Notes under the pieces: model-generated
Databases searched by the model: none
Told to the model about the DNA's origin: nothing
The model's input: the letters and a program-made list of their open reading frames with translations, nothing else
Assembly (NCBI GenBank): GCA_947478725.1
Contig: CANJWZ010000011.1
Coordinates: 1 to 64,000, forward strand
Direction of reading: 5' to 3'
Length of the DNA stretch: 64,000 nt
From: Comamonadaceae bacterium
GTDB taxonomy: Bacteria > Pseudomonadota > Gammaproteobacteria > Burkholderiales > Burkholderiaceae_C
Shown here: positions 12,399 through 60,698 of the stretch, piece by piece
Layout: every line of letters begins with the position of its first letter
Numbering within the stretch: the first letter of the stretch is position 1
Made by a program: the position numbers and the translations under genes

Positions 12399-14087
12399 TC
12401 AGAGCACTTCGCTGGCAAAGTCAGCCAGCCGTGAACGCTCACCACGCGCCAATGTGATGTGTCCGCCATGCGGCCAGCCCTTGAACCGGTCAACGGCGTA
12501 GGTCATGCCCGACGAGCCTTCGGTCAAATACGGCGTGTCGATCTGCGCCAGGTTGCCCATGCAAATGATTTTGGTGCCAGGCCCGGCGCGTGTGATCAGC
12601 GTTTTCATCTGCTTGGGTGTCAGGTTTTGCGCCTCATCAATGATGACGTATTTGTTTAAAAACGTCCGGCCGCGCATGAAGTTCATGCTCTTGACCTTGA
12701 TCCGTGAGCGAATCAGCTCGTTGGTGGCCGCACGGCCCCATTCGCCTGAACCGTTTTCGGTCTTGCCGAGCACTTCAAGGTTGTCGTCCAGCGCGCCCAT
12801 CCATGGGCCCATTTTTTCCTCTTCGGTGCCGGGCAGAAAACCGATGTCTTCGCCGACCGATACCGTAGCCCGAGTCATGATGATCTCGGTGTAGCGGCGG
12901 TCGTCAAGCACCTGTGTCAGGCCACTGGCCAGCGCCATCAGCGTCTTGCCGCTGCCCGCCGTGCCCGCCAGCGTGACAAAGTCAACTTCCGGGTCCATCA
13001 GCAAATTCATGGCAAAGTTTTGTTCGCGGTTGCGAGTGGTCACGCCCCACACCGCGTTTTTCAGGTGGTTGAAATCCTTCAGGGTTTTCAATACCGCTGT
13101 TTTGGCACGTATTTCGGTGACACGTGCATAAAGAGGCGGCTCGCCAGGCGCTTCAAAAAATACGAATTGATTGATCAGCAGACTGGTCACGATCGGTCCG
13201 GTGATGCGGTAGAAGTTGTAGCTGCCCTGCTGCCAGCTCTCAATGGTTTTGCTTTGTCGTGTCCAGAAGTCGTTGGGCAGCGCCAGTACGCCGGAATACA
13301 GCAGATCGCCGTCGTCCAGTGTCTTGTCGTTCTGGTAATCGTCAGTGGCCAGGCCCAGCGCGCGGGCCTTGACGCGCATGTTGATATCTTTGGATACCAG
13401 CACCACCTCGCGCGGGGCATGTTGTTTGCGCAAGGCCTCCACGACCCCCAGAATCTGGTTGTCCGCCTTGCCTTGTGGCAGGCTGGTGGGCAGCGAGTAG
13501 TCCAGCGCTTGGGTTTGAAACAGCAGATTGCCCTTGGCTTCGCGGTGGCCGGTCGTGTCCAGCTTCAGGCCTTTGGTGATCTCGGCACCCTGCGCGCCTG
13601 CCAGCGCATCCAGCGAGCGGCTGGTTTGGCGAGCATTGCGGGCGACTTCGGTCATGCCTTTTTTATGACCGTCCAGTTCTTCCAGAACGATCATGGGCAA
13701 GAAAATGTCGTGTTCTTCAAATCTGAACAGGCACATCGGGTCGTGCATCAGCACGTTGGTATCGAGCACAAACAGTTTGGTCGGCCCAGTGTGTTTTGGC
13801 TTTTTAACGGGCTTTGGCTGGGCAGGCCGATGAGAGCGCACACCAGCGCTGTCATCGGGCCGCTTGCCCAGTTGCTGAATGCTATCTTTTTTATAGCTTT
13901 TTGCACTGGAATTGACTGGATTTAAAGCCTTTTTTGTGTCTGAAAAAGCCTCTGGATGGGTGGTTTTAGGTGCAGCCGCCGGCTTTGCGCTGGCTTTCGG
14001 CGATTTAGTGCTTTGGCGCTCAGGTGTGTCCAGACTATCCAGGGTGATCAGCGCTGCACGCTTGGCAGGTGGTGGGGGCAAGGGCAT
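12399..14087 (-). CDS. PIN domain-PhoH ATPase fusion protein (PhoH2/YlaK type)
   Basis: 562 residues. A low-complexity Lys/Pro/Ala-rich N-terminus (1-105) is followed by a PIN nuclease domain (about 106-240; LFVLDTNVLMHDP, VLEELDGHKKG, and DNQILG with acidic residues). A PhoH ATPase domain takes the last 250 residues, with Walker A AGTAGSGKTLMA near 385, Walker B YVIIDEAQNL near 478 and a final ARGERSRLADFAS. Such fusions are regarded as RNA helicase/ribonucleases. The N-terminal linker is partly encoded by a copy of a dispersed repeat (13881-13934, residues about 52-69), so that segment is probably dispensable. It is a single gene with its own promoter. Confidence 0.9.
   Translation of the reverse strand: MPLPPPPAKRAALITLDSLDTPERQSTKSPKASAKPAAAPKTTHPEAFSDTKKALNPVNSSAKSYKKDSIQQLGKRPDDSAGVRSHRPAQPKPVKKPKHTGPTKLFVLDTNVLMHDPMCLFRFEEHDIFLPMIVLEELDGHKKGMTEVARNARQTSRSLDALAGAQGAEITKGLKLDTTGHREAKGNLLFQTQALDYSLPTSLPQGKADNQILGVVEALRKQHAPREVVLVSKDINMRVKARALGLATDDYQNDKTLDDGDLLYSGVLALPNDFWTRQSKTIESWQQGSYNFYRITGPIVTSLLINQFVFFEAPGEPPLYARVTEIRAKTAVLKTLKDFNHLKNAVWGVTTRNREQNFAMNLLMDPEVDFVTLAGTAGSGKTLMALASGLTQVLDDRRYTEIIMTRATVSVGEDIGFLPGTEEEKMGPWMGALDDNLEVLGKTENGSGEWGRAATNELIRSRIKVKSMNFMRGRTFLNKYVIIDEAQNLTPKQMKTLITRAGPGTKIICMGNLAQIDTPYLTEGSSGMTYAVDRFKGWPHGGHITLARGERSRLADFASEVL
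13881..13934 (+). repeat. Dispersed GCTAT-ATAGC element, copy in the PhoH gene
   Basis: GCTAT and ATAGC (13881-13897) pair around a T-rich loop, followed by ATTGACTGGATTTAAAGCC. It is read in frame on the opposite strand by the PhoH-family gene. It belongs to the element family also seen at 16525, 20991, 33331, 34779, 36526, 48649, 55701 and 60630. Confidence 0.65.
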
Positions 14088-14120
14088 GTGCTATGAGCTC
14101 TTTAAGATGCGTTAAAAACA

Positions 14121-14150
14121 AAAAAGCCGCCAAGTTTAAGTGGCGGCTTT
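14121..14150 (-). terminator. bcp: Intrinsic terminator after bcp
   Basis: Read on the minus strand, AGCCGCCA (14148-14141) pairs with TGGCGGCT (14132-14125) around an 8-base loop, and a run of six T follows. It lies downstream of bcp and upstream of the PhoH gene. Confidence 0.8.
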
Positions 14151-14235
14151 CTGGCGGCTTTCGCGGGTGAAGTGATTGGCGCGATCAACAAGATGCGACC
14201 ATTATGCACAAATCCTGTGACGCTCCAGAAATGCT

Positions 14236-14712
14236 TCAGGCGGTCTTTTTCAGTGCTTTGACAGCCTTCAAAACGTCGTCCACATGGCCTACTACTTTCA
14301 GGCCGCGCCACTCTTGGGCCAGTGTGCCGTCAGCCGCCAACAAAAATGTGCTCCGTTCGATGCCTTTGACTTTTTTGCCGTACATGATTTTGTTTTTGAC
14401 CACACCAAACATATGGCACATTTTTTCTTCGGTGTCGGCAATCAGCTCAAAAGGCAGTTCAAGCTTGGCTTTGAACTCGTCGTGTGACTTCATGTTGTCC
14501 CGGGACACGCCAAAAACTGTGGCCCCGGCTTTGACAAAGCTTTTGTAGTGGTCGCGAAACTGCATGGCTTCAGTGGTGCAGCCAGGGGTGTTGTCTTTTG
14601 GGTAAAAGTACAAAACAACCACTTTACCAATATGCGAGGTGTTGGAAACCTTCACGCCACCGGTGGCGTTCGCTTCAAATTCAGGGAGGAGCTTATTGAC
14701 GACGACTGCCAT
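14236..14712 (-). CDS. bcp: Peroxiredoxin of the Bcp/PrxQ family
   Basis: 158 residues, the normal Bcp length. The thioredoxin-fold active site is YPKDNTPGCTTEAMQFRDH with the peroxidatic cysteine near residue 45. The second cysteine that sits five positions later in many relatives (PGCTTEAC) is Met here, so this is probably a 1-Cys or alternatively resolved form; another Cys occurs near residue 98 (EEKMCHMFGV). It reduces peroxides in the cytoplasm with thiol donors. It ends at a strong terminator. Confidence 0.93.
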   Translation of the reverse strand: MAVVVNKLLPEFEANATGGVKVSNTSHIGKVVVLYFYPKDNTPGCTTEAMQFRDHYKSFVKAGATVFGVSRDNMKSHDEFKAKLELPFELIADTEEKMCHMFGVVKNKIMYGKKVKGIERSTFLLAADGTLAQEWRGLKVVGHVDDVLKAVKALKKTA

Positions 14713-14813
14713 ACTGGTGGGATCCTGGGAGTAGTGATGGTGATGGACCTCTAGGCAAAACGGGCTGCCCCGGTTTGCACAACCCTAAATTTTACCCTGA
14801 AAGCCAGGCCGGC

Positions 14814-15203
14814 TCAGTCGCCTGTCTCGATCAGCAATGCTGCAATCACCTGACGCCCTTCGCCTGCCAGAACGTTGTACGTGCGGCAGGCGGCCAGTGT
14901 GTCCATGGTTTCTATGCCAATCCGGCTCTTCATAAGCGCACGCATGAAGGCCGCAGGCGCAAACCTGAGGCGTGTGCCGCTTCCAAAAATCACCAGTTCG
15001 GGCTTGGTTTGAGCCAACAGGGCGAAGTGGTTCTCAGTCAGGTCTTCAAAGCGAGTGCAGTCCCAGTCAAACTTTTCGCCGCGCGAGCCGATCACGATGC
15101 TGCGTTCGATTTTTTCAGCCACACCGTAGCGGCCCAAACCCACCCAGCCGGGCCCGTAGCCCAAAATGGATTGAACATCTAGCCTGTCAGGTTGAAGCTT
15201 CAT
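14814..15203 (-). CDS. Mth938-like domain protein (DUF498 family)
   Basis: 129 residues from ATG 15203, which gives MKLQPDRLDVQSILGYGPGW, the usual opening of the bacterial members; an ATG at 15212 adds three residues. The core VIGSRGEKFDWDC...LTENHFALL and the motif LVIFGSGTRLRFAPAAF (about residues 71-87) are the signature of this small alpha/beta domain, related to human NDUFAF3. The bacterial function is not established. It is divergent from alaA, with about 80 bp shared for both promoters. Confidence 0.85.
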   Translation of the reverse strand: MKLQPDRLDVQSILGYGPGWVGLGRYGVAEKIERSIVIGSRGEKFDWDCTRFEDLTENHFALLAQTKPELVIFGSGTRLRFAPAAFMRALMKSRIGIETMDTLAACRTYNVLAGEGRQVIAALLIETGD

Positions 15204-15282
15204 GGATGGCAAGTTTATGGCAGATGCTGCCAGCCAGCGTTTGTGTGGTCAAATTATGGGTTCCGTTTTAAGGAATTCTCCA

Positions 15283-16554
15283 ATGAAACCTGTCACCAAA
15301 TCTGCCAAGCTGGCCAACGTGCTTTATGACATTCGTGGGCCCATCATGGACGCGGCACGCCAGATGGAAGACGAAGGCCAAAAGATCATCAAGCTCAATC
15401 TTGGCAACCTGGCGGTGTTTGGCTTTGATGCCCCTGAAGAGATCCAGCAGGACATGATTCGTAACCTGCCGAACTCGGCAGGTTACTCTGACAGCAAGGG
15501 TATTTTTGCGGCACGCAAGGCTGTGATGCACGAGACGCAAAAGCAGGGCATCAAAGGCGTGACACTGGACGACATCTACCTGGGCAATGGCGCGAGCGAA
15601 CTCATCACCATGGCCACCAACGCGCTGCTCGACAACGGTGACGAGCTGCTGCTGCCGATGCCCGATTACCCGCTGTGGACGGCTGCAACCAGCCTGTCGG
15701 GTGGCACCCCCGTGCATTACCTGTGCGACGAGGCCAACGGCTGGATGCCCAATTTGGCTGACATACGCGCCAAGATCACGCCGCGTACCAAGGCGATTGT
15801 GGTGATCAACCCGAACAACCCGACGGGAGTGCTTTACTCAGACGAGTTGTTGATGGGCATCGTGGCGATTGCACGCGAGCATGGTCTCGTTATCCTGGCT
15901 GATGAGGTGTACGACAAGGTGCTTTATGAAGGTGCCAGGCACACGGCCATGGCTTGTCTGTCAACCGACGTGCTGACGCTGACCTTCAATTCACTGAGCA
16001 AAAGCTACCGCAGCTGCGGCTACCGCGCAGGCTGGATGGTCGTGTCGGGAGACAAACGCGCAGCTGCTGACTACATCGAAGGCCTGAACATGCTCAGCAA
16101 CATGAAGCTGTGCTCCAACGTGCCGGGCCAGTGGGCCATTCAAACCGCACTCGGCGGCTACCAGAGCATCAACGATTTGACGTGTGAAGGCGGCAGGCTG
16201 CGCCGCCAGCGTGATCTGGCTTATGAGCTGATCACCGCCATTCCCGGTGTGAGCTGCGTCAAGCCGGTGGCTGCTCTATACATGTTCCCCAGGCTGGATC
16301 CGGTGATCTATCCGATCAAGGACGACCGCCAGTTTTTTCTGGAGCTGCTGCGCGAGACGCGCGTCATGCTGGTGCAGGGCACAGGTTTTAACTGGCCTGA
16401 CCCGGACCATTTCCGCATCGTGTTTTTGCCGCATGAAGACGACCTGCGCGAGGCGATTGGCCGGATCGCCAAGTTTTTGGAGTCGTACCGCAATCGTGCA
16501 AGCATATCCCCCACGAAAACGAACGCTATTAAATTAGTAGCTGCTAGATCATAA
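15283..16554 (+). CDS. alaA: Glutamate-pyruvate (alanine) aminotransferase, AlaA type
   Basis: 423 residues from ATG 15283, with AAGGA at 15271; the frame is open upstream but not family-like. It matches the E. coli AlaA pattern closely: KLANVLYDIRGPIMDAAR, AGYSDSKGIFAARKAV, MPDYPLWTAATSLSGG, VINPNNPTG and the PLP lysine in NSLSKSYR (about residue 240). It makes alanine from pyruvate with glutamate as donor, in the cytoplasm. The last residues (NAIKLVAARS) and the stop codon come from a dispersed repeat starting at 16525, so the native C-terminus has been replaced. It precedes hom and thrC. Confidence 0.92.
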   Translation: MKPVTKSAKLANVLYDIRGPIMDAARQMEDEGQKIIKLNLGNLAVFGFDAPEEIQQDMIRNLPNSAGYSDSKGIFAARKAVMHETQKQGIKGVTLDDIYLGNGASELITMATNALLDNGDELLLPMPDYPLWTAATSLSGGTPVHYLCDEANGWMPNLADIRAKITPRTKAIVVINPNNPTGVLYSDELLMGIVAIAREHGLVILADEVYDKVLYEGARHTAMACLSTDVLTLTFNSLSKSYRSCGYRAGWMVVSGDKRAAADYIEGLNMLSNMKLCSNVPGQWAIQTALGGYQSINDLTCEGGRLRRQRDLAYELITAIPGVSCVKPVAALYMFPRLDPVIYPIKDDRQFFLELLRETRVMLVQGTGFNWPDPDHFRIVFLPHEDDLREAIGRIAKFLESYRNRASISPTKTNAIKLVAARS

Positions 16555-16585
16555 ATTTATTGGCCTAGCGGCTTATTCCTTAGTT
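16525..16585 (+). repeat. Dispersed GCTAT-ATAGC element, copy between alaA and hom
   Basis: It starts GCTATTAAATTAGTAGCTGC, continues with ATTTATTGGCCTAGCGGCTT and ends near TTAGTTAAAA. The second block ATTTATTGGCCTAG is shared exactly with the copy after clpB. It encodes the AlaA C-terminus and forms most of the hom leader. Confidence 0.7.
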
Positions 16586-16594
16586 AAAAAACAT

Positions 16595-17917: not shown

Positions 17918-19449
17918 TGCACTACCTTTCGACCCGTGGCGAGTCTGCTGCCAATGAGGCCCCGCGAAAATTTTGCGACATTCTGCTCGAAGGCCTGGCG
18001 CCTGATGGCGGTCTGTATTTGCCGGAGTATTACCCGCAAGTCACGCCCGCCATGCTCGATGCCTGGCGTCATTTGCCTTATGCGGATTTGGCGTTTGAAG
18101 TGTTGTCGCTTTATATCGATGACATTCCAGCGGCGGATTTAAAAGCCATTTGCCGCAAAACCTACACGCAGGATGTGTTTGGTACGGCCGCCATCGTGCC
18201 GCTTCGCCCGCTTGAAAAAGGCTTGTACCTTCAGGCTTTGTCAAACGGCCCGACGCTGGCATTTAAAGACATGGCCATGCAGTTGCTGGGCAATTTGTTT
18301 GAATACGAATTGGCGCGACGTGGTGAAGAGCTGAACATCCTGGGCGCCACCAGTGGCGACACCGGCAGCGCTGCTGAGTACGCGATGCGCGGCAAGCGCG
18401 GCGTGCGGGTGTTCATGACCTCCCCGCAGGGCCGAATGAGTCCTTTTCAGCAGGCGCAGATGTTCAGTTTGCAAGACGCGAACATCCACAATATCGCTGT
18501 TGAGGGTGTGTTTGACGATTGCCAGGACATCGTGAAGGCCGTGTCGAATGACCTGGACTTCAAGCGGCAGTACAAAATTGGTACCGTCAACTCGATCAAT
18601 TGGGCTCGCCTCATGGCGCAAGTTGTGTACTACTTTGCCGGCTATTTACAAGCCCCCACGCTTGTCGCTTCGCGTACTGCGCTGCTCCCCGAGGGGGCCG
18701 CTGCGCCTGCGGACTGGCAAAGCCAGATCCGCGGCCCCGGCTTGAGGAGTTCAGGGGAATTGCCTAAGGTCAGCTTTACGGTACCCTCCGGTAATTTCGG
18801 TAATGTCTGCGCGGGTCATGTCGCCCGCATGATGGGCTTGCCAATTGACAAACTGGTCGTTGCGACCAATGAGAACGATGTGCTGGACGAGTTTTTCCGG
18901 ACAGGTATTTACCGCGTCAGAACCAGCATTGACACGATGGAGACTTCGAGTCCGTCGATGGACATTTCCAAAGCATCGAACTTTGAACGCTTTGTGTTTG
19001 ACATGCTCGGCCGTGACGGCGCGCAAACCAAAGCACTGTTTCATGACCAGCTCCATGCCAAAGGCAGCTTTGATTTGAGTGCCAACGAGGCCTTTCAATC
19101 GGCGGCTAAAACCTATGGTTTTCTGAGCGGCAAAAGCACCCATGTCAACCGCTTGGCCACCATTCAAAGCGTCTATGCGCAGTTCAATGACATCATCGAC
19201 ACCCATACTGCTGACGGTGTGAAAGTGGCGCGCGAGCACATGCAGCCTGGCGTGCCAATGATCGTGATGGAGACTGCCTTGCCGATCAAATTTGCCGAAA
19301 CGATTGAAGAGGCACTCGGCAGGCTACCGCCGCGCCCGGCAAAATTTGAAGGCCTTGAAGCCCTGCCCAAACGCGTCAAACTGATGCCCGCCGATGCGGG
19401 GCAGATCAAGTCCTATATTGTTGAATGCGTGAACGGTATCAAGTCATGA
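17917..19449 (+). CDS. thrC: Threonine synthase, with an in-frame repeat-derived insert
   Basis: 510 residues from ATG 17917, longer than the roughly 470-480 typical of the family. Normal blocks: STRGESAANEAPRKFCDILL, the PLP-lysine segment LSNGPTLAFKDMAMQLLGNL, LGATSGDTGSAAEYAMRG and FTVPSGNFGNVCAGH. Between VYYFAGYLQAP and KVSFTVPSG there are about 30 extra residues (about 246-279, VASRTALLPEGAAAPADWQS and more) encoded by a GC-rich dispersed repeat at 18654-18740. It converts O-phosphohomoserine to threonine with PLP. The insert presumably sits in a surface loop. Confidence 0.96.
   Translation: MHYLSTRGESAANEAPRKFCDILLEGLAPDGGLYLPEYYPQVTPAMLDAWRHLPYADLAFEVLSLYIDDIPAADLKAICRKTYTQDVFGTAAIVPLRPLEKGLYLQALSNGPTLAFKDMAMQLLGNLFEYELARRGEELNILGATSGDTGSAAEYAMRGKRGVRVFMTSPQGRMSPFQQAQMFSLQDANIHNIAVEGVFDDCQDIVKAVSNDLDFKRQYKIGTVNSINWARLMAQVVYYFAGYLQAPTLVASRTALLPEGAAAPADWQSQIRGPGLRSSGELPKVSFTVPSGNFGNVCAGHVARMMGLPIDKLVVATNENDVLDEFFRTGIYRVRTSIDTMETSSPSMDISKASNFERFVFDMLGRDGAQTKALFHDQLHAKGSFDLSANEAFQSAAKTYGFLSGKSTHVNRLATIQSVYAQFNDIIDTHTADGVKVAREHMQPGVPMIVMETALPIKFAETIEEALGRLPPRPAKFEGLEALPKRVKLMPADAGQIKSYIVECVNGIKS
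18654..18740 (+). repeat. GC-rich dispersed repeat inside thrC
   Basis: The sequence has CCCACGCTT, then GCGCTGCTCCCCGAGGGGGC and CGCTGCGCCT. The same order occurs at 44799-44872 (reverse) and 41511-41592 (reverse). The CCCC-GAGG-GGGC core can fold as a hairpin. It is translated in frame as about 30 residues of threonine synthase. Confidence 0.7.
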
Positions 19450-19982: not shown

Positions 19983-21217
19983 TGCCGCCGATCACACCCC
20001 GCCAGCCCCTGAAGCCCCTTGACGAAGCATTGGTTGAACTGCTGGGGCATGCTGCGCCCTCTGATAAAACAGAAACAGTGTCAACTTTTGATGCCGATGG
20101 CCGCGTACTGGCAGAAGACCTTGTCGCTGCATTGGATGTGCCTGCGCACGACAACAGTTCCATGGACGGATACGCGGTACGCAGTGCAGATTGGCAAAAC
20201 GCCGAAACAGTGCTGCATGTCAACCAGCGCATCGCCGCGGGCAGCAACGGTAGCGTGCTCGCGGCCATGTCTGCGGCGCGCATCTTCACGGGTGCGCCGA
20301 TTCCCGATGGTGCTGATGCGGTGGTGATGCAGGAAGACTGCACCACGCCCGGGCCTGAACAGGTGTGTGTTGCCACCCAACCCCAAGTTGGGCAGTGGAT
20401 CAGGCGGCGTGGTGAAGACGTGACATCTGGTCGCACCGTGCTCCCAAAAGGGGAGCTTTTAGCCCCCGAATCTATTGGCTTGGCGGCCAGTGTTGGTTAT
20501 GCAGCGCTGCGTGTGGTGGCTCCTGTTCGGGTGGCCCTGTTTTCCACCGGTGACGAGTTGGTGATGCCTGGCGATGTCGCACCCCAGGACATGTTACCGG
20601 GCGCGATTTACAACTCCAACCGGTTTTTTCTGCGTGCCTTGTTGCAACGACTGGGCTGCACCGTGACCGACATGGGCATCGTGCCAGACAAACTTGCTGC
20701 GACAAAAGAGGCCTTGTTAACCGCAAGCAGCGCGCATGATCTGGTGCTGACCAGTGGTGGCGTGTCTGTGGGTGAAGAAGACCACATCAAACCTGCTGTC
20801 CAGGCACTTGGTCAGCTCAATCTGTGGCAAATCGCCATCAAGCCAGGCAAGCCGTTTGCCTATGGGAAAATCCAGAACGCGCACTTTATCGGCTTGCCCG
20901 GCAACCCTGTATCGAGCTATGTGACCTTCTTGCTGCTGGTCAGGCCGTTCATTCGGCAGCTTCAGGGCGTTACCCGGTTTGCTCCTGAATCGATAGCTGC
21001 TAGAGCAGACTTTGATTGGACAAAAGCCGATAAACGCAGGGAATTTTTGCGCGCAAGACGAAATTCGGCAGGGGGCCTGGACTTGTTTGTCAACCAAAGC
21101 TCCGGTGTTCTCACCTCGGCCGTCTGGTCCGATGGTCTGGTCGACAACCCAGCTGGCAGAACCATTGCGCGTGGCGACATGGTTCAGTTCATGCCGCTGT
21201 CATCACTGATGTTCTGA
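19982..21217 (+). CDS. moeA: Molybdopterin molybdotransferase MoeA
   Basis: 411 residues from ATG 19982. It carries the expected order: LDVPAHDNSSMDGYAVRSAD (about 41-60), FTGAPIPDGADAVVMQED, RRRGEDV, the MPT-binding FSTGDELVMPGD and GAIYNSNRF, LTSGGVSVGEEDHIK, and GLPGNPVSSYVTF. It inserts molybdate into adenylated molybdopterin. A short stretch near residues 337-352 (SIAARADFDWTKADKR) is encoded by sequence resembling a dispersed repeat. It is cotranscribed with mobB, moaD and moaE. Confidence 0.96.
   Translation: MPPITPRQPLKPLDEALVELLGHAAPSDKTETVSTFDADGRVLAEDLVAALDVPAHDNSSMDGYAVRSADWQNAETVLHVNQRIAAGSNGSVLAAMSAARIFTGAPIPDGADAVVMQEDCTTPGPEQVCVATQPQVGQWIRRRGEDVTSGRTVLPKGELLAPESIGLAASVGYAALRVVAPVRVALFSTGDELVMPGDVAPQDMLPGAIYNSNRFFLRALLQRLGCTVTDMGIVPDKLAATKEALLTASSAHDLVLTSGGVSVGEEDHIKPAVQALGQLNLWQIAIKPGKPFAYGKIQNAHFIGLPGNPVSSYVTFLLLVRPFIRQLQGVTRFAPESIAARADFDWTKADKRREFLRARRNSAGGLDLFVNQSSGVLTSAVWSDGLVDNPAGRTIARGDMVQFMPLSSLMF
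20991..21034 (+). repeat. Partial dispersed GCTAT-ATAGC element inside moeA
   Basis: GATAGCTGCTAGAGC followed by TTGATTGGACAAAAGCC resembles the ATAGCTGCTAG and ATTGACTGGATTTAAAGCC parts of the other copies. The left end is missing. It is read in frame by moeA. This is the least certain copy. Confidence 0.4.
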
Positions 21218-21227
21218 AAGGCCGACG

Positions 21228-21476: not shown

Positions 21477-21477
21477 C

Positions 21478-21951: not shown

Positions 21952-21973
21952 TGCTCTGCGCGCGTGGCAGGCA

Positions 21974-23385: not shown

Positions 23386-23440
23386 CGAGCCTGCCCATGA
23401 TTCATCGCGATTTGGAAAAGGTGTAGCTTAAAAACAGACG

Positions 23441-25341: not shown

Positions 25342-25394
25342 GAACTTTTGAAGATGACATGCGTTTTTTATTCACCAGAAAGCAGGAGACATAG

Positions 25395-33330: not shown

Positions 33331-33400
33331 GTTGCTCCTGATTCAGGAGCTACTTGCCCATGTATTTATTGGCCTAGGGGCTGATTTGAGACTTAAAAAG
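33331..33400 (+). repeat. Dispersed GCTAT-ATAGC element, copy after clpB
   Basis: GCTCCTGATTCAGGAGC forms the terminal stem, followed by ATTTATTGGCCTAGGGGCT and ACTTAAAAAGC. The ATTTATTGGCCTAG block matches the alaA/hom copy exactly. It lies between the convergent clpB and lipocalin genes and could act as a transcript end. Confidence 0.7.
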
Positions 33401-33988: not shown

Positions 33989-34054
33989 TGTCGATTTAGT
34001 GTCGATTTAGTGTCGATTTAGTGTCGATTTAGTGTCGATTTAGTGTTGATTTAG
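33989..34054. repeat. Six-copy 11 bp tandem repeat between lipocalin and YebC-family genes
   Basis: TGTCGATTTAG is repeated six times head to tail (33989-34054); five are identical and the last has one change (TGTTGATTTAG). The last unit supplies the stop codon (TTA on this strand) of the YebC-family gene, and every unit carries the same TTA, so slippage would keep a stop codon. It lies 23 bp upstream of the lipocalin start, so copy number could change its promoter spacing. Confidence 0.9.
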
Positions 34055-34778: not shown

Positions 34779-34846
34779 TGCTATTTAATTAGGAGCTGAT
34801 TGCCCAGATATTCGTTGGTCTCGGGGCATATTTGACGCCCTGAAAG
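34779..34846 (+). repeat. Dispersed GCTAT-ATAGC element, copy upstream of the YebC-family gene
   Basis: GTGCTATTTAATTAGGAGC, then ATTCGTTGGTCTCGGGGC, ending in CCTGAAAG. Same block order as the copies at 33331 and 36526. It occupies the gap between the AstE-like gene and the YebC-family gene and starts directly before the latter's ribosome site. Confidence 0.6.
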
Positions 34847-35906: not shown

Positions 35907-36587
35907 ATGATCACCACACGGCAACTCGCCTACCAGTACGCCAACGGGCCAGAGATCAGGTTTGAAGACCTTGACGTGCCGCAGGGTGACGTGCTGTTGC
36001 TCACAGGCGCATCCGGTTCAGGCAAGTCGACCTGGCTGGCGCTGGCTGCTGGCTTGCTGCAAGCCAGCAGCGGCAGTATCACCGTCGCCGGGCAAGCCTT
36101 GAGGCGACTCAACAAGGTGCGAAGCGACGCATGGCGTGCCGAAGCGATTGGTTTTTTGCCACAAAAGCTGCATTTGAGTGCTGCGCTGAGCGTGCATGGC
36201 AACCTGGCGCTGGCGCAGTGGGCAGCGGGGCGAAAAACCGACGACAAAAGCATCCCAAAGGCGCTGACCGCGCTGGGTGTGCAGAACCTGGCACAGCGCA
36301 GGCCGTCACAGTTGTCAGGCGGGCAGGCCCAGCGGGTGGCGCTGGCGCGGGCAGTCCTGCTGGAGCCGCGGGTGATTCTGGCGGACGAGCCCACTGCCAG
36401 TTTGGACGATGAAGCTTGCGCAGCAGCACTGGTGCTGCTGATGGCCACAGCAGAGCGCTTGAATGCCACGCTGGTGGTGGCGACCCATGATTCGCGGGTC
36501 AAAAAGCACCTGGAAGCCGGTTCCAGATCATTTTTAAGTGTTGAATTGGTCCCTGAGCCAATAGATATATGTTCGGGTAGCTCCTGA
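35907..36587 (+). CDS. ABC transporter ATP-binding protein (LolD/MacB-like, zinc cluster)
   Basis: 226 residues from ATG 35907 (frame open to 35850). Walker A TGASGSGKST is near residues 33-42, the signature LSGGQAQRVALARA near 136-149, Walker B VILADEPTASLD near 156-167 and the H-loop VVATHD near 190. The last 15 or so residues (LVPEPIDICSGSS) come from a dispersed repeat. It pairs with the FtsX-like permease that follows. Together with the DUF3299 gene and a ZnuD-like receptor the arrangement recalls the Pseudomonas Zrm (PA4063-PA4066) zinc-responsive system. Confidence 0.92.
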   Translation: MITTRQLAYQYANGPEIRFEDLDVPQGDVLLLTGASGSGKSTWLALAAGLLQASSGSITVAGQALRRLNKVRSDAWRAEAIGFLPQKLHLSAALSVHGNLALAQWAAGRKTDDKSIPKALTALGVQNLAQRRPSQLSGGQAQRVALARAVLLEPRVILADEPTASLDDEACAAALVLLMATAERLNATLVVATHDSRVKKHLEAGSRSFLSVELVPEPIDICSGSS

Positions 36588-36596
36588 ATGTATAGC
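36526..36596 (-). repeat. Dispersed GCTAT-ATAGC element, copy at the end of the ABC ATPase gene
   Basis: Read on the minus strand it runs GCTATACATTCAGGAGCTAC, then ATATCTATTGGCTCAGGG and ends near ACTTAAAAA. It overlaps the stop codon at 36585-36587 and codes for the ATPase C-terminal tail. Confidence 0.65.
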
Positions 36597-36619
36597 TGGT
36601 CATTGTCGCGGAAGGTGTC

Positions 36620-41264: not shown

Positions 41265-41610
41265 TGGATGATTCATGTCTGTTTAACTGACAGGTGGGCG
41301 GCTGGCCCAAGGCAAAGATGGTTCTTTAAGCCTGCTAGCAACACAGCCATGCCACCCCTTCAGTCCCTGCAATCATTGCCTCTATCCGTTCAGACCATTG
41401 GCCTGTAGGCACTGCCTAATGTCTTGATGACCTTTGCCTGCTGGGGGGCGGTGTATTTTATTTTTCGTGGTGCTTGATGAGGAAATTGCAGCGCAAGATT
41501 GAAATTTAGTGGCGCCATAAAAGTAGGGCCGAAGGCGCAGCGGCCCCCTGGGGGCAGGGCGCGACACGATGTGAGCAACTGTGGGGGCCACGTACCCGGT
41601 TAAACTCCCA
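41265..41610. other. Gene-free stretch between the ZnuD-like receptor and the phosphate operon
   Basis: No gene is convincing here. Its right part is a copy of the GC-rich repeat (41511-41592). Open frames on the minus strand in this stretch cross the repeat and show no family signature. I see no good terminator for the receptor gene. Confidence 0.45.
41511..41592 (-). repeat. GC-rich dispersed repeat upstream of the Pho box
   Basis: Read on the minus strand: GGCCCCCACAG, then GCGCCCTGCCCCCAGGGGGC and CGCTGCGCCTTCGGCCC. It matches the order of the copy inside thrC, including the CCGCTGCGCCT block. Confidence 0.65.
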
Positions 41611-44798: not shown

Positions 44799-44872
44799 CG
44801 CTGGGCCGCCCCAAGGGAAATGAGTCCCCGTGGGGGGCAGTGCCTTACGCGCAGTAAAAAGCGTGGGGGCTC
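44799..44872 (-). repeat. GC-rich dispersed repeat between rpsP and rimM
   Basis: Read on the minus strand: GAGCCCCCACGCTT, then CTGCGCGTAAGGCACTGCC, CCCCACGGGG and CTTGGGGCGGCCCAGCGGG. It matches the copy inside thrC in order and in its CCCACGCTT and CCCC-GGGG blocks. It provides a hairpin just ahead of rimM and might attenuate or process the message. Confidence 0.65.
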
Positions 44873-46818: not shown

Positions 46819-46831
46819 ATGCGGATAACTT

Positions 46832-48604: not shown

Positions 48605-48613
48605 CGCAGGTCT

Positions 48614-49573
48614 TCAGTACCGCGTCTGCGACAGTTCTGCAAATAATTCGCTATATAAACGATAGCGATTAACGCTTATATTTATGGGTCCTGCGCCCGA
48701 CTTAAGCTCTGAAATCACGCCACATCCAGGTTCATGCAAGTGCGTGCAGTTGTAGAACTTGCAGTTTTGCGCATGCGCTTTGAAGTCTGGCATCAATTGC
48801 GCAAGTTGCATAGGCTCAATGTGGTTCAGACCAAACTCCTGAAAGCCTGGCGAATCAATGATTGCTGCAGTGCGCGCTGCGTCGATCCAATACAGCGTTG
48901 TGCTGGTGGTGGTGTGCTTGCCAGAATTTAGGGCCCGCGAGATTTCTGCCGTCAGCACCTTGGCCTTCGGTACGAGCAGGTTGGTCAAACTGCTTTTGCC
49001 CGAGCCTGATGGCCCCAGCACCAAGGTTTTTTTACCTTCAAGCAGAGCCATCAACCGATCGGTTTGCGCGGTGTCTACAGCCCTGTCCGGCTCTGGCTTG
49101 ATAGCCAGTGGCAGCATCTGGTAGCCCATCGCCCGGTAGGGTGAGAGCTTGGTCCAGGCTCTGCCAAACGGTTCAGCCAAATCACTTTTATTCAGCGCAA
49201 CGATGGGCGTGATGCCAGCTGCTTCAGCGGCAATCAGCGCGCGCGTCAGTTGACTTTCCGAAAATTCAGGGTCCGCCGCAATCAGTATCAGTATCTGATC
49301 CAAATTGGCCGCAAACGACTTGGTTCGCAGCTCGTCCTGGCGATAAAAAACGTTGCTGCGTTCGTCAATTTTTTCAATCGTCCCCTCGTCCTCGCTCGGC
49401 AGCCAGCGCACCTCGTCGCCGACCAGCGCCTGGCCTTTTTTACCGCGCGGGTGGCAAATGATGCGTTGGCCGTCAGCAGTTTCAACCAGCACATGCCGGC
49501 CAAAACCTGCCACGACCAGACCTTGCTGCATGCCCGCTGAGGAGGTATTTGCCGGGTGTTGAAATTTACTCAA
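48614..49573 (-). CDS. rsgA: Ribosome small subunit GTPase RsgA (YjeQ)
   Basis: 319 residues. An OB fold (about 15-75) precedes a circularly permuted GTPase: NKSD (about 127-130), then GPSGSGKSSLTNLL (about 187-200), then DSPGFQEFG. A C-terminal zinc knuckle reads CKFYNCTHLHEPGC (about 271-284). It checks 30S maturation. The last residues (about 291-312, INISVNRYRLYSEL) are encoded by a dispersed repeat; the normal C-terminal helix may be modified. Overlaps the PCD gene start by 4 bp. Confidence 0.96.
   Translation of the reverse strand: MSKFQHPANTSSAGMQQGLVVAGFGRHVLVETADGQRIICHPRGKKGQALVGDEVRWLPSEDEGTIEKIDERSNVFYRQDELRTKSFAANLDQILILIAADPEFSESQLTRALIAAEAAGITPIVALNKSDLAEPFGRAWTKLSPYRAMGYQMLPLAIKPEPDRAVDTAQTDRLMALLEGKKTLVLGPSGSGKSSLTNLLVPKAKVLTAEISRALNSGKHTTTSTTLYWIDAARTAAIIDSPGFQEFGLNHIEPMQLAQLMPDFKAHAQNCKFYNCTHLHEPGCGVISELKSGAGPINISVNRYRLYSELFAELSQTRY
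48649..48706 (+). repeat. Dispersed GCTAT-ATAGC element inside the rsgA 3' end
   Basis: CGCTATATAAACGATAGCG forms the terminal stem, followed by AACGCTTATATTTATGGG and CGACTTAAG. It is read on the opposite strand as part of the RsgA C-terminus. Confidence 0.55.
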
Positions 49574-51170: not shown

Positions 51171-51204
51171 CAAGGGAGTTTAGGCCATCAGCGAGAATAG
51201 TGTG

Positions 51205-52079: not shown

Positions 52080-52087
52080 ATGACTGA
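51986..52087 (+). CDS. Possible leader peptide overlapping the helicase start
   Basis: ATG 51986 opens 33 codons (MNEAARNSGACKFFCAMLLL and 13 more) ending at TGA 52085-52087, 5 bp inside the helicase gene and in another frame. It has a hydrophobic centre (CAMLLLIAAAGM). No clear ribosome site precedes it. It could couple or restrict translation of the helicase, but it may be chance. Confidence 0.25.
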   Translation: MNEAARNSGACKFFCAMLLLIAAAGMISEKKHD

Positions 52088-54041: not shown

Positions 54042-54072
54042 TCAAGCGACATGAGCTTTGCGGCTGTGCCGC

Positions 54073-54114
54073 AAAAAAGCCGCGACAGACCTGATGGTTT
54101 GTCGCGGCTTTTTT
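54073..54114. terminator. Strong bidirectional terminator
   Basis: AAAAAAGCCGCGACA (54073-54087) pairs with TGTCGCGGCTTTTTT (54100-54114) around a 12-base loop. The T-run and A-run suit termination of both the helicase gene and the convergent deacylase gene. Confidence 0.93.
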
Positions 54115-54128
54115 CTTTTCGCCAGCAA

Positions 54129-55814
54129 CTATGTCGACGCAAACTCCGTCAACAACTTGCCAGCCAGTGGTGGTTTTGCCAGCATACCCTGGCTATCTGC
54201 CACCTGCTGGCCGTTCACCCACACACCGTGCACGCCCAGCGCATCGGTTGTTAGCCGGGCTGCGCCGCCAGGCAGGTCAAACACGCGGCGCTTCGGGCCG
54301 CGGCCTACGGTTTCTGGGTCAAACAGCAGCAGGTCAGCCGCCATACCTTCTTTGATCATGCCTCGGTCGGTCATGCCGAAGATGCTGGCGGGTTGCGATG
54401 TCAGGCGGCGAGTGGCTTCTTGCAGGCTCATGGCTTTTAAATCACGCACCCAGTGACCCAGCAAGTGCAGACCAAAACCGGCGTCATTGAAAAAAGTCAA
54501 GTGTGCACCGGCATCACTGAGCGACACAAGGCTGTGCGGGTGCTTGAGCATCTGGCCCACGGCCTCTGTGTCGCTGTTCAGCAACTGGGCGGTAAACACG
54601 GTTTGCAGGTCTTCAGCCAAGGCTAAATCCAGCATCACATCCAGCGGGTCGCGTGACTGTTCTTTCGCAATCTCAGCCACGGTGCGCTGCTCGAGCAATA
54701 TATTCGTAGGTAACGATGTCTCCACCACATGCACCTTGTCCCACTCACCGTTAAACAGGCGAAAGGTCGTCGGCGCTGCAATCTCATCGCGCACCGATTG
54801 CCTGAACGCCCGGTCTTTCAGGACCGTCTTCAGAGCCTCGCCTTGCAGGCCCAGTGCTGGCTTCCAGCTTTGCAAGCCTTCTACGGGGTAGGGGGATGCC
54901 AGAGTGAAGTCCATCGTCAAGGGGCAGCAAGACACCTGGCCAATCAGGCGCTGGCCGCGTGTGTTGGCTTCAAGAATTTGATTCAGGTCTTTGAAGACTG
55001 CTTGCGGGTTGGTGCTGTTGTGCAGCAGCGCGGCAATCATCACGGGCCGGCCTGACTGCTTGGCCATACTTTCTAAAAAAGGCACGGGCATTTGCCCGCC
55101 TTTGGTCACCATGTACACGCCAGTGCCGCGTTCACCCATGGCTGTGATCAGCGCCATCATCTCCGCATCACTGGCCAGTCGCGATGGCATGGGCAAGCCG
55201 CCTTCTCCGTTGTGCGCTGGGCTGGTGCTGCTGGCAAAACCGACAGCGCCTGCAGCCATCGCGTCCCTGACGATGGTTTGCATCTGTTCAATTTCATGCG
55301 GTGTTGCTTCACGCCTTGAGGCGTCTGCACCCATCACCCAGGTGCGTACCGACGAATGGCCAATGTAGGCGGCGGTATTGACCACACAGCCTTTGCTGCG
55401 CAGCATCGCCAGATATTCGTCAAAGGTTTCAAAGCCCCAGTCGATGCCGCTTTTAAGAACCTCAAGCGACATGCCTTCGACCTGCGTCAGGTTGCGCATC
55501 GTCATGTCGCGGTCAGCCGGCTTGCAGGGGGCGATGGTAAAGCCGCAGTTGCCAATCACGGCGGTTGTGACGCCCAGTGCGGGTGAGGGTTTGAGCGTCG
55601 CGTCCCAGGTGATTTGCGCATCAAAATGGGTGTGGCTGTCGATGATGCCAGGCATCAGTGCCAAGCCTGTGCCATCAATGATATGGCTTGCATTACCAGG
55701 TAAATTTGAGCCTACAGCCCTTATTTTATGAGCGCTAACTGCTACGTCTTTGATAGCGGGCTCGGCACCCGAACCGTCATACAGCAACGCGCCTTTGATC
55801 AGCAAGTCGTCCAT
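54129..55814 (-). CDS. N-acyl-D-amino-acid deacylase (D-aminoacylase) family amidohydrolase
   Basis: 561 residues of the amidohydrolase-3 type. It begins MDDLLIKGALLYDGSGAEPA, has GIIDSHTHFDAQITWDATL with the first metal His pair, EVLKSGIDWGFETFDEYLAML with the bridging region, and SDAGAH near residue 445. Family members hydrolyse N-acyl-D-amino acids or related cyclic amides. The segment near residues 20-39 (PAIKDVAVSAHKIRAVGSNL) is encoded by a dispersed repeat. Last gene of the GntR operon; start spaced 12 bp after the gene before it. Confidence 0.9.
   Translation of the reverse strand: MDDLLIKGALLYDGSGAEPAIKDVAVSAHKIRAVGSNLPGNASHIIDGTGLALMPGIIDSHTHFDAQITWDATLKPSPALGVTTAVIGNCGFTIAPCKPADRDMTMRNLTQVEGMSLEVLKSGIDWGFETFDEYLAMLRSKGCVVNTAAYIGHSSVRTWVMGADASRREATPHEIEQMQTIVRDAMAAGAVGFASSTSPAHNGEGGLPMPSRLASDAEMMALITAMGERGTGVYMVTKGGQMPVPFLESMAKQSGRPVMIAALLHNSTNPQAVFKDLNQILEANTRGQRLIGQVSCCPLTMDFTLASPYPVEGLQSWKPALGLQGEALKTVLKDRAFRQSVRDEIAAPTTFRLFNGEWDKVHVVETSLPTNILLEQRTVAEIAKEQSRDPLDVMLDLALAEDLQTVFTAQLLNSDTEAVGQMLKHPHSLVSLSDAGAHLTFFNDAGFGLHLLGHWVRDLKAMSLQEATRRLTSQPASIFGMTDRGMIKEGMAADLLLFDPETVGRGPKRRVFDLPGGAARLTTDALGVHGVWVNGQQVADSQGMLAKPPLAGKLLTEFAST
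55701..55758 (-). repeat. Dispersed GCTAT-ATAGC element inside the deacylase gene
   Basis: Read on the minus strand: GCTATCAAAGACGTAGC, then AGTTAGCGCTCATAAAATAA and GGCTGTAGGCTCAAATTTAC. It is read in frame with the gene and supplies about 19 residues of the N-terminal part. Confidence 0.65.
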
Positions 55815-55826
55815 CTTTGCGTCTTT

Positions 55827-58051: not shown

Positions 58052-58066
58052 AAAACAATTTTTCAG

Positions 58067-58939
58067 TCAAGCGGCGAGTTTGAGTTGATCCAGCGATGTT
58101 TGCAACGCACTTGCAGGCACGCCATCCTTCCAGGGCAGATCAACCGGATAGTCTTTCACCAAGCAATCGTCGGGCAGGCAACTGATGGGCGTGAAGTCCC
58201 GGTGCGCGATGTATTCGGGACGTTTGTGGCGGCGAATGTGGTTGCTCACCGCGCACAGGCTCAGGTACACGCTGACCCGGTCAAACGGCGACAGGTTGCT
58301 GCCTGAGGCATGCACCAGGCAGGAATGAAACAGAATCATCGAACCCGCTGGGCCCTTGGGGCTGACGATGCCACCTTCTTTACCACCAGCGCGCTGCACC
58401 AGTTGGCGAATCAGGTTGTTATCGACCGTCCATAGCGGGTAGCTGGTCGTCGTCAGGTCATGTTTGGCCTCGACCACCCCTTTTTTGTGGCTGCCGGGGA
58501 TGAACATCAACGGGCCGTTGTGCTCGGTCACATCGTCCAGAAAAATGGCCACGTTCATCGCACGTTCGGTGGGCATGTGGTCGTCGTTCAGCCAGGTGCC
58601 GTAGTCCTGGTGCCACTGCCACACATCGCCTTCAAAGGCCATCTTGCCGTTGATCTTGAACTGGTGCATGTAAAGCTGCTCGCCCAGCAGGCTTTCGACG
58701 GGTTCAATCATGCGTGGGTGCCTGGCCAGCTTGGCAAACGGCTCGCTGTACATGTGGGCTGCAAAGTTGGTGCGCACCGCGTCTTTGCCTTTTTCACGCA
58801 CGTTGTAGTCCTCACGGCGTGAATAAAGTTCAGGCACAGCGTCGTTCAGCTTTTTCGTTTCTTCTGGCGTGAAGAGGCCTGGAAAAAACAGATAGCCGTC
58901 GCGATCAAATTGGGCCAGTTGGTCAGGGGTTAATTTCAT
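58067..58939 (-). CDS. Phytanoyl-CoA dioxygenase-family Fe(II)/2-oxoglutarate oxygenase
   Basis: 290 residues from ATG 58939 (AGGA upstream); the frame extends to 59026 inside the regulator gene. The double-stranded beta-helix shows the HxD pair in WQWHQDYGTW (near residue 108) and the distal His in HSCLVHASGSNLSPFDRVSV, with the Arg for 2-oxoglutarate close behind. It uses oxygen and 2-oxoglutarate to hydroxylate a small molecule. Substrate unknown. It is the second gene of the GntR operon. Confidence 0.9.
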   Translation of the reverse strand: MKLTPDQLAQFDRDGYLFFPGLFTPEETKKLNDAVPELYSRREDYNVREKGKDAVRTNFAAHMYSEPFAKLARHPRMIEPVESLLGEQLYMHQFKINGKMAFEGDVWQWHQDYGTWLNDDHMPTERAMNVAIFLDDVTEHNGPLMFIPGSHKKGVVEAKHDLTTTSYPLWTVDNNLIRQLVQRAGGKEGGIVSPKGPAGSMILFHSCLVHASGSNLSPFDRVSVYLSLCAVSNHIRRHKRPEYIAHRDFTPISCLPDDCLVKDYPVDLPWKDGVPASALQTSLDQLKLAA

Positions 58940-58949
58940 GGTGTGTGTC

Positions 58950-59633
58950 CTAGGTCGTTTTAAAAAGGGTTTGGTTGAGCAAATGCGCCAGTAAATGAGA
59001 CAGGTTTTGGCCTGCGTCTTCGCCATGCTGACGGATCAGGGTTTCGGCTTTGGCGGCATCACCGCGTTCGATGGCTTTGGCAATCGCTTCATGCTCGTCC
59101 CAGATCGATTCACGCATGGTGGACAACTGCAGCACTGCCCCCATGGCGCGGCGAATATGGTGCCAGTGCGTTTGTGCGGTTTGTGCAATCAGCGGGTTGC
59201 CCGATGCAACATAAATGGCGTTATGAAAGGCGGCATCAGCCGTCATCATGGCCTTGATGTCTGTGCCGCGCGCGGCCATGCGGCCCTGCGTGATGAGCCG
59301 CGCATCCATCGCGTAGCGTGACTGCGCTGCCAGCCTGGCGGCCAGCGCGTCCAGCGTACTGCGCACCTGGTAAATCTGCACCAGTGTTGTGACGTCCAGC
59401 GGCGACACCAGCACACCACGGCCTGGCGCATCCAGCACAAAACCGTCTTTGCGCAACAGGCGCAGTGCCTGCAAAACCGGCTGGCGCGACACAGCCAGTT
59501 GCTCGGCAATGTCTTCCTGCGTGATGCGCGCACCAGGCTGCAGTGTGCCGTCGCTGATGGCGTCCAGCAGGCTCGCATAGACCTGTTCAACCATGTCGGG
59601 CGTGGATTCGATTTTGATCAGCTTGGTGGCCAT
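58950..59633 (-). CDS. GntR-family (FadR subfamily, FCD domain) transcriptional regulator
   Basis: 227 residues. The N-terminal winged helix is seen at about residues 12-75 (VEQVYASLLDAISDGTLQPG, ITQEDIAEQLAVSRQPVLQA), then the helical FCD domain with metal-binding positions in DAAFHNAIYVASGNP and HWHHI. The regulator heads the operon that continues into the dioxygenase, SAF oxidoreductase, dehydrogenase and deacylase genes. A TCTGTATACAGA palindrome lies directly in front of it (59643-59654), consistent with autorepression and control of the divergent hydrolase. Confidence 0.94.
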   Translation of the reverse strand: MATKLIKIESTPDMVEQVYASLLDAISDGTLQPGARITQEDIAEQLAVSRQPVLQALRLLRKDGFVLDAPGRGVLVSPLDVTTLVQIYQVRSTLDALAARLAAQSRYAMDARLITQGRMAARGTDIKAMMTADAAFHNAIYVASGNPLIAQTAQTHWHHIRRAMGAVLQLSTMRESIWDEHEAIAKAIERGDAAKAETLIRQHGEDAGQNLSHLLAHLLNQTLFKTT

Positions 59634-59642
59634 GTCTTAAAC

Positions 59643-59654
59643 TCTGTATACAGA
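59643..59654. promoter_or_regulatory. GntR operator between the regulator and the hydrolase
   Basis: TCTGTATACAGA is a perfect 12 bp palindrome, 9 bp before the GntR start (59633) and about 106 bp before the hydrolase ATG. Its sequence is of the type bound by FCD-domain GntR repressors (TGTATACA core). Confidence 0.65.
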
Positions 59655-59760
59655 ATACGTCAGTTGGATGGTTCTGCCTCTCGGGTTAACCCGCGGTCAT
59701 CCTGCGCATCTTTCAGATGTGCAAAGATAGCGCTGGATCAATCATTTTTAGGACCGCGAC

Positions 59761-60615
59761 ATGAACCTCAAAGACCCCGCATGGCTGGACAGCATGTACA
59801 ACAACCGCAAGCTGGTGGCCGACTACGCCACCTACTTTGACAACTGGGTGCAAGCCTCAACCGCCGCCAGAAGCAGCCAGCCATGCACGCTGGATGTGGC
59901 TTACGGCCAAGCGCCAGGCGAAAAGCTGGATGTGTTCCACGGCGCAGCCAAAGATGCGCCTGTGATGGTGTTTATCCACGGCGGTTACTGGCGCTCGCTC
60001 GACAAGTCTGACCACTCATTTGTCGCCCCCGCCTTCACAGCGCAAGGCGCATGCGTGGTGGTGGTGAATTACGACTTGTGCCCGGCGGTGACGATTCCCG
60101 AGATCACCATGCAAATGGTGCGATCGCTCGCCTGGGTGTACCGCAACATTGCCAAGCATGGCGGCAACCCCAAGCGCATCAGCGTGGTGGGCCACTCGGC
60201 GGGCGGGCACCTGGCGGCCATGATGTTGGCGTGTGTGTGGAAGGCCTACGCCGCTGATTTGCCGGCTGACCTGGTAAAAAACGCGCTGTCTATCTCAGGC
60301 TTGTACGACCTGGAGCCGCTGCGCCACGCACCGAATGTGAAAGACGCCCTCAAACTGACACCAGCGCAGGTGCGCAAAGCCAGCCCGGCCTTGTTACCCG
60401 CACCTCGCAAAGGTGTGCTTTACAGCGTCGCGGGTGGCAATGAAAGCGCCGAGTTTTTACGCCACAACCAGTTGATTCAAAAAGCCTGGGGCAACAAAAC
60501 CGTGCCTGTGTGCGAAGCGTTGCCGGGTCTGCATCACTTTAGCGTGATGGATGCGTTGATTGACCCGGCGCATCGGCTGCATCGGTTGGCGCAGCAGCTT
60601 ATTGCGGCTGCATAG
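59761..60615 (+). CDS. Alpha/beta hydrolase (esterase/arylformamidase-like)
   Basis: 284 residues. HGGYWRSLDKSDHSFVAPAF (about 64-83) gives the HGG oxyanion motif, the nucleophile is in ISVVGHSAGGHLAAM (GHSAG near residue 147) and the catalytic His near GLHHFSVMD at about 262. The HGGYW and GHSAGG pair resembles kynurenine formamidase and related carboxylesterases. It would cleave an ester or formamide before the products enter the divergent GntR operon. Confidence 0.88.
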   Translation: MNLKDPAWLDSMYNNRKLVADYATYFDNWVQASTAARSSQPCTLDVAYGQAPGEKLDVFHGAAKDAPVMVFIHGGYWRSLDKSDHSFVAPAFTAQGACVVVVNYDLCPAVTIPEITMQMVRSLAWVYRNIAKHGGNPKRISVVGHSAGGHLAAMMLACVWKAYAADLPADLVKNALSISGLYDLEPLRHAPNVKDALKLTPAQVRKASPALLPAPRKGVLYSVAGGNESAEFLRHNQLIQKAWGNKTVPVCEALPGLHHFSVMDALIDPAHRLHRLAQQLIAAA

Positions 60616-60629
60616 CGCTTAATTCGCCA

Positions 60630-60698
60630 TTTTTGGATGCTATTTAAGACTGTAAGCCAATGAATACGTGTGCGAAAAGCTCTTAAAAATATAGCAAA
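60630..60698 (-). repeat. Dispersed GCTAT-ATAGC element after the hydrolase gene
   Basis: Read on the minus strand: GCTATATTTTTAAGAGCTTT, CGTATTCATTGGCTTACAG, then TTAAATAGC. The block order is the same as at 36526. Confidence 0.65.

Follow-up and report, generated by a model that had tools for sequence, protein, structure and literature searches.

Repetitive extragenic palindromes with their associated tyrosine transposases (REP/RAYT systems) and the Rickettsia palindromic elements are short, dispersed, palindrome-bearing mobile inserts, some of which lie in reading frames. Dispersed sequences of another kind mark DNA for uptake: in the relevant sections of PMC1626085 the uptake signal sequences (USSs) of Pasteurellaceae are described as arising by substitution, as falling into two types and as carrying AT segments spaced at roughly one helical turn. 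Within the Comamonadaceae, a section of a 2017 statistical survey (PMC5217627) reports unexplained spaced motifs, GCTTAT(N)5AAGCG in Acidovorax ebreus and ATAGCT(N)22CAAAAG in Polaromonas naphthalenivorans (114 and 125 copies), as mostly intergenic, enriched in convergent gaps and close to gene ends, the first being also stated to be poor in divergent gaps; that section treats pairs in two genomes, and unity, dialects, in-place origin and phasing do not figure in it. Here we analyze a 64,000-nt stretch (the window) from a Comamonadaceae bacterium (GenBank assembly GCA_947478725.1, contig CANJWZ010000011.1, positions 1 to 64,000), in which an original prediction had listed nine copies of a 60–70 bp element, several fused in frame into genes and jointly resembling a miniature inverted-repeat transposable element (MITE) or a REP. 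We find that this element is best read as a dispersed DNA signal and not as a set of recent mobile-element copies.

The main matrix used to establish this has 68 columns; its training set is 133 sites in 851.7 kb of source-genome (G000) sequence outside the window, in 40 stretches of which 20 were picked with known hits in view and 20 were not. Scanning the window with this outside-trained matrix recovered exactly ten sites, the nine listed copies (31–46% G+C) plus one more in moeA, with nothing further above 8 bits; the reversed sequence of the same loci reached a null maximum of 13.2 bits. The ten sites align gap-free over 66–70 nt, and a leave-one-out test confined to the window, which is weaker evidence, placed nine of them among the first ten of 127,870 positions and position 55757 at rank twelve. 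The listed copies are thus genuine members of one motif, and the 14-base block said to be common to the alaA/hom and clpB copies is indeed there (ATTTATTGGCCTAG). The motif is single and asymmetric, and its 68 nt comprise a GCTAT..AGC head, a genus-variable center and AAA/TTT tracts; its consensus in the source genome, tGCTATtnAtTcAgtAGCTgCTnGCcCAngTATTnATTGGnCTagAGgCctATTTgAtaccTaAAAan, scores 89.6 bits, while the mean site has 50 bits.

Because half of the training stretches had been chosen with known hits in view, density was estimated from the 20 unselected ones alone (400 kb, sites above 14 bits): these hold 54 sites, corresponding to about 540 in the 3.99-Mb genome, or about one per 7 kb. 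A first covariance model gave at least 150 scored matches in the source genome, with 50 at E<=0.01 in the unselected 400 kb. There are thus hundreds of alignable matches per genome, far above a floor of about five, dispersed and with no coding capacity of their own, as had been foreseen. The same model matched 23 of 60 same-family genomes (one per genus, the source genome included), and the motif also occurs at the hom and moeA loci of relatives, so the expectation of similar elements in other Comamonadaceae was sound; since the model covers one dialect, the 37 unmatched genomes are an upper bound on absence.

The center of the motif is spelled differently from genome to genome, e.g., GCGCTTG..CAAGCGC in G015, GAGCAGTATTTACATGGGC in G035 and AAACTATGACCATTTGACGGGGGC in G042. 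These dialects were compared over the central columns only, using matrices from other sites of each genome and leaving out sites below 10 bits; the tests rest on 20-bit refits, those at 12 bits being void through drift onto codon patterns in G003, G020 and G047, and some training sets are small (four sites in G047, six in G004, seven in G039). At held-out sites in TruB, YfiH and TrmJ the best score came from the host's own dialect in 18 of 24 cases; all six misses, in hosts G003, G004 and G010, were won by G015, whose GCGC-type dialect they share. When the comparison was confined to six distinct dialects (G000, G015, G035, G039, G042 and G047), the own dialect won 16 times out of 16. The same codons thus take the spelling that fits the local genome.

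Constraint is also apparent between G015 and G082, which are partly syntenic and mostly 80–91% identical. Nine comparisons without gaps, covering five site pairs of which four were seen from both sides, give an identity of 78% in the motif and 86% in the flanks, and the score changed by a mean of -1.3 bits versus -32.7 under random change, a retention slightly flattered by a matrix trained on these two genomes; the weakest compared site went from 22 to 10.5 bits. We are highly confident that the motif is real, constrained at the level of DNA and divided into dialects.

The sites in genes bear on how the motif arises. The description of some copies as fused in frame holds as a statement of position, the stop codons of the alaA-like gene (16552–16554) and of the ABC ATPase gene (36585–36587) lying within the motif as predicted. 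Understood as insertion it fails at MoeA, TruB and the amidohydrolase, although the loops of TrmJ, YfiH, GlpK and DapF are longer. Each MoeA site is spanned by 66 of 80 relatives: the first is gapless in all 66 and the second gapless inside in 65, with small gaps just outside it in five more relatives, and a motif of 19–37 bits stands at the codons of the second site in 13 relatives and at those of the first in three. The amidohydrolase site aligns gap-free with D-aminoacylase 1m7j, the GpsA and IleS sites are gapless against G082, and the net length at the site relative to solved homologs is +2 residues in LeuS, +4 in TruB and +7 in ThiL. The per-gene comparison within the family used the 30 best protein-matching genomes, own included, drawn from 59 (YfiH, TruB) or 57 (TrmJ) of the 60. 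It is cleanest for TruB, where 16 of the 30 genomes carry the motif (22.9–65.4 bits): length is unchanged in 14 of these (one +3, one -4), and in 11 of the 14 lacking it (two -1, one -4). At conserved positions, then, genomes with and without the motif differ by substitution alone. The TrmJ loops range from -12 to +7 with the motif and from -28 to +11 without it, those of YfiH from -8 to +10 and from -17 to +10, and in both the motif-bearers are longer overall, with exceptions; therefore, in free loops the motif tends to be accompanied by extra length.

The tracts of the motif suggest a reader of DNA shape. The strongest dependence between columns is among neighbors and reflects swaps of AAA and TTT blocks (e.g., positions 52–54, 63–65 and 73–75). 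In the source genome the AAA/TTT peaks fall at -2, 8–9, 32–33, 53, 64, 74, 84, 93 and 105, near a 10.5-bp lattice, and none of 2000 permutations equaled the observed 10–11 bp power downstream of the core; in the same test 74 of 2000 permutations reached the observed power in G035, 627 in G082 and 1259 in G015. Such phased A-tracts would be the expected trace of a protein that senses bending. We envisage that a protein reads the motif as bent double-stranded DNA with a preference that drifts by lineage, and the likeliest such reader would be the type IV pilus/ComEC pathway of natural transformation. Cells would then preferentially take up DNA bearing their own dialect, and recombination of the incoming alleles would spread the motif and restore it where it stands, in the manner of the Pasteurellaceae and Neisseriaceae uptake signals. 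By analogy with those signals we tentatively put the motif forward as a candidate DNA-uptake self-recognition signal, without claiming even odds for it.

Several observations bear on such a signal. ComEC, the only competence gene searched for, is present in 55 of the 60 genomes, the source genome among them. No motif site was found in four conjugative Comamonadaceae plasmids (231 kb), while related chromosomal stretches (Rhodoferax, Polaromonas) have 16 sites per 100 kb; those stretches, from hom-locus relatives (Rhodoferax, Polaromonas, Acidovorax, Comamonas and kin), had been chosen for hom, and the scan covered dialects other than that of Verminephrobacter. With uptake signals the motif shares copy number, both orientations, rarity in foreign DNA and dialects, though not a core of 9–12 bp. 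Like the Pasteurellacean USSs, in the parts of the literature that describe them, it has an in-place origin in genes, lineage types and helically spaced AT segments (PMC1626085, PMC7811141). Unlike them (9 bp core, uptake shown), it is at least 68 nt long, less dense, from another family and known from sequence alone, and it differs also in its AAA/TTT interchange and in the change of length at many loop and intergenic sites. Dialects are likewise a feature of the DNA uptake sequences (DUSs) of Neisseriaceae, whose overlapping dyad pairs, as presented in sections of PMC3630211, resemble the overlapping inverted site pairs at an offset of 37–38 in G015 and G082. The DUS differs in being described as 10 bp without flanking motifs (PMC1626085, in part) and in having a known receptor, ComP (PMC3868556, in part). 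Tail-to-tail site pairs also occur here, at an offset of 143–150 bp or about 14 helical turns (L046 2947/3090, L072 9796/9941, L053 18113/18263). In its evolution the motif is uptake-signal-like; membership in the class is not claimed because its length lies outside the known range.

A number of findings count against an uptake signal that arises in place. Known uptake-signal cores measure 9–12 bp versus 68 nt here, site density is below that of USS or DUS, and the helical lattice stops near position 63 in G015, G082 and G035. Of the five other coding sites that an available homolog spans, GpsA and IleS included, three are gapped, by 12–14 positions, and loops exceed those of solved homologs by 12 residues in YfiH, 15 in DapF, 18 in GlpK and about 26 in TrmJ. 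Among 74 syntenic G015/G082 site records (scored -99 where the other genome's stretch is too short for the motif), 26 have no motif in the counterpart genome, always together with a difference in length (1 nt in one case); none of the 15 records without a length difference falls under 10 bits. Therefore, recent gain or loss, mostly intergenic, goes with insertion or deletion. Intergenic sites and some protein loops are longer with the motif than without it, so an insertion may lie at the origin of some sites. With respect to the reader, G042 (rated 100% complete) has a strong private dialect yet no detected ComEC; G003 has its ComEC split over three frames (possibly a sequencing error) and a low density of nine sites per 120 kb; and most genomes that lack the motif have ComEC too. 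Decay of the motif upon ComEC loss in G042 was considered and dropped, the low scores there being dialect mismatch. The motif is present as well in a plasmid of Diaphorobacter that is not mobilizable, in a plasmid record of Rhodoferax antarcticus, where ten sites fall within 32 kb, and in a resistance-integron cassette, that of DUF1010, situated between dfrA12 and aadA2.

In that cassette (L358, NC_004464.2 65213–68250, at 1489–1556) the motif scores 66.8 bits and is in the GCGCTTG dialect. The consensus matched 1,749 plasmid records, mostly enterobacterial, and among the matches listed, once two from Comamonadaceae are set aside, DUF1010 accounts for 26 of 28. This cassette may derive from a Comamonadaceae chromosome. 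Of eight frames that cross motif sites in G015, one (L196 18249–18572) matches PF06231 (DUF1010) positions 1–22 with E 0.011, below the cut-off, and part of the DUF1010 "protein family" may be translated motif.

The strongest alternative, which we regard as possible but unlikely, is that the motif binds a chromosome-organizing protein (a nucleoid protein, condensin loader or gyrase-like wrapping enzyme), the phased A-tracts serving to bend DNA or wrap it, with a dialect that follows the protein. The helical phasing, which extends up to ten turns in the source genome, would suit such a protein, as would the equal use of the strands (44+/45- and 48+/54-, with no bias over 300 kb) and the placement of sites. 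By a simple purpose-built gene caller, the 143 source-genome sites comprise 57 inside genes (24 sense, 33 antisense), 11 across gene ends and 75 in intergenic regions, with densities of 0.07 per kb within genes and, for the gaps, of 0.89 (tandem), 1.1 (convergent) and 0.13 (divergent) per kb; this amounts to intergenic enrichment near gene 3' ends, many sites coming shortly after stop codons. Spacing in G082 is more even than random (coefficient of variation (CV) 0.69; 0.85% of nulls as low), and G042 keeps its dialect without detected ComEC. However, spacing is uneven in G015 (CV 1.13), and one would expect a house-keeping organizer to be ancient and conserved, yet the center varies by genus and the single-dialect model leaves those 37 genomes unmatched. 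A 12-kb low-GC stretch that G015 has and G082 lacks contains one site, and two G015 gaps of 24–25 kb, one low in G+C and one not, have none (all chosen after looking).

Lower still we place an old, domesticated miniature mobile element (MITE, REP/REPIN or Rickettsia-palindromic-element-like) whose survivors are kept by a secondary use, a reading that we consider improbable. It would account for dispersed, intergenic-rich sites with a hairpin-like head, for the differing lengths of loops and intergenic sites, and for the overlapping or tail-to-tail inverted pairs. Near-identical copies are, however, hardly to be found: the 133 source-genome sites outside the window have a mean pairwise identity of 0.50 in a single hump with a maximum of 0.78, barring one pair at 0.93 in a single 20-kb locus (the sole pair above 0.8), and their scores also form one hump with 13 below 30 bits. 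The mean identity is 0.51 in G015, with a few local pairs at 0.84–0.99 (three in one tandem group), and 0.57 in G035, with three pairs at 0.81–0.84. Conserved coding sites are gapless, the dialect is respelled at the same codons, the score is held under turnover, and the 231 kb of conjugative plasmids have no site. Thus, the MITE- or REP-like mobility originally proposed finds little support. Dead copies of an old element were rejected as an explanation, since the score is kept while the letters change. As to empty sites, G015 and G082 show length differences at many intergenic sites and no clean joints (at 81–89% genome identity, intergenic DNA is too diverged).

The search for a cognate transposase gave no candidate. 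The lone Y1_Tnp gene of the source genome adjoins a different repeat, with a motif site (46.6 bits) about 100 bp beyond it, and Y1_Tnp does not track the motif, being found in 47 of the 60 genomes, including some without motif matches, and absent in motif-bearing G020 and in G040 (74% complete). In this lack of a cognate RAYT, as in its gapless conserved coding sites, the motif is unlike the REP/RAYT systems and the Rickettsia palindromic elements. The RAYT-like gene of the source genome (L036 1060–1900, G000 C8) lies between inverted AATAGGGGTCAGATT, possibly its own REP. A larger transposon in G035 with the motif as its ends was also rejected: the 335-bp candidate turned out to be an unrelated, nested repeat that encloses the motif. 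Inverted pairs of CAGAACACAGAGGCACAGAGG repeats with the motif nested between them are seen at L207 8942–9276 and in L264. Two other dispersed elements of about 175–180 bp in G035 (L207 14944–15117 and 18193–18373) are MITE-like contrast families with young copies, the former having more than 25 further copies at 91–99% identity. The beta-proteobacterial repeat element (BRE), as characterized in parts of PMC3110155, is like the motif a dispersed repeat (40–91 bp) of Bordetella and Comamonadaceae with some copies within genes; by this description it is set apart through its average of 69% G+C in Bordetella, compared with 31–46% in the nine listed copies, its tandem arrays and its copy number of at most 29.

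A self mark for another DNA system, whether a Chi-like recombination signal or a mark by which a nuclease or defense system tells self from non-self, would agree with the dialects and with chromosomal abundance as against none in the plasmids; we judge it quite improbable, as strand bias is absent over 300 kb, and Chi is far shorter than the 68-nt motif. Finally, an RNA-level element (a terminator, mRNA stabilizer or small RNA) would match the many sites close behind stop codons, but we give it hardly any credence, given that the 57 in-gene sites lie in both senses, that the top 45 column pairs include no nested base-pair run and none joining the two arms of the head, that these arms show no compensatory (both-sided) change in the ten window sequences, that an Rfam search returned two matches below the cut-off and neither at a motif site, and that RNA pairing offers no reason for an interchange of AAA and TTT.

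The ten sites of the window are collected below.

Table 1. Sites of the 68-nt motif in the 64-kb window
Location	Positions	Strand	Score (bits)	Remark
Near 5' end of phoH2 (PIN-PhoH; gene on - strand)	13880..13947	+	50.6	
Between alaA-like aminotransferase and hom	16524..16591	+	66.2	Gives aminotransferase its last codons and stop
In moeA, residues 154-176	20439..20506	+	23.8	Missed by original prediction
In moeA, residues 334-357	20980..21047	+	38.9	
Between convergent clpB and next gene	33333..33400	+	72.6	Top score of window
Between yebC and aspartoacylase-like gene	34779..34846	+	64.4	
Across 3' end and stop of ABC ATPase gene	36530..36597	-	53.0	
In rsgA C-terminal part, antisense	48649..48716	+	41.9	
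In N-terminal part of D-aminoacylase-like amidohydrolase, sense	55691..55758	-	31.4	
Intergenic, downstream of alpha/beta hydrolase gene	60629..60696	-	64.7	

The listed moeA copy is real, but it is longer than had been noted and is one of two in that gene. The PhoH2 site precedes the PIN domain, and a simple gene caller sets the phoH2 start downstream of it. The alaA/hom gap is likewise filled by the motif in Rhodoferax (L123, L088), Comamonas (L118, L159) and Acidovorax (L127, L135, L148), and the distance from residue 425 to hom is only 26–29 nt in Limnohabitans (L131) and Ramlibacter (L147, L160). The window also has a tandem array with an 11-bp unit, TGTCGATTTAG, at 33989–34054 beside yebC, and a GC-rich dispersed inverted repeat distinct from the motif at 18651–18712, 41529–41554 and 44826–44871 (92%/26 nt, 78%/46 nt).

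The motif as a whole was not found named in the searched literature. The two spaced motifs of the 2017 survey, as given in its section on these genomes, are probably fragments of it, to judge from the agreement of the head and central stem letters; a scan of 8 Acidovorax and 13 Polaromonas-type loci did not find their exact patterns. For natural transformation in the family, the relevant part of PMC4212676 describes Verminephrobacter and two Acidovorax species as transformed by free DNA, states that no Acidovorax strain tested took DNA of another Acidovorax species, and names no uptake sequence for either genus.

If the motif is indeed an uptake signal, the Comamonadaceae could be a third bacterial family with a self-recognition signal for natural transformation, an extension that we advance still more cautiously than the function itself; judged from its sequence, this signal would be longer (a 68-nt core with A-tracts to 105 bp), read by shape as well as by letters, and divided into dialects that isolate genera. 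Uptake specificity would then reach beyond the two families said, in the pertinent passage of PMC7811141, to show it, and the signal would be long enough to reveal how shape and helical phase feed the DNA-uptake machine. It could also explain why, as reported in that part of PMC4212676, DNA from other Acidovorax species did not transform the Acidovorax strains tested. Even with another reader protein, a motif of about 50 bits at about 500 sites, respelled by genus, is unusual.

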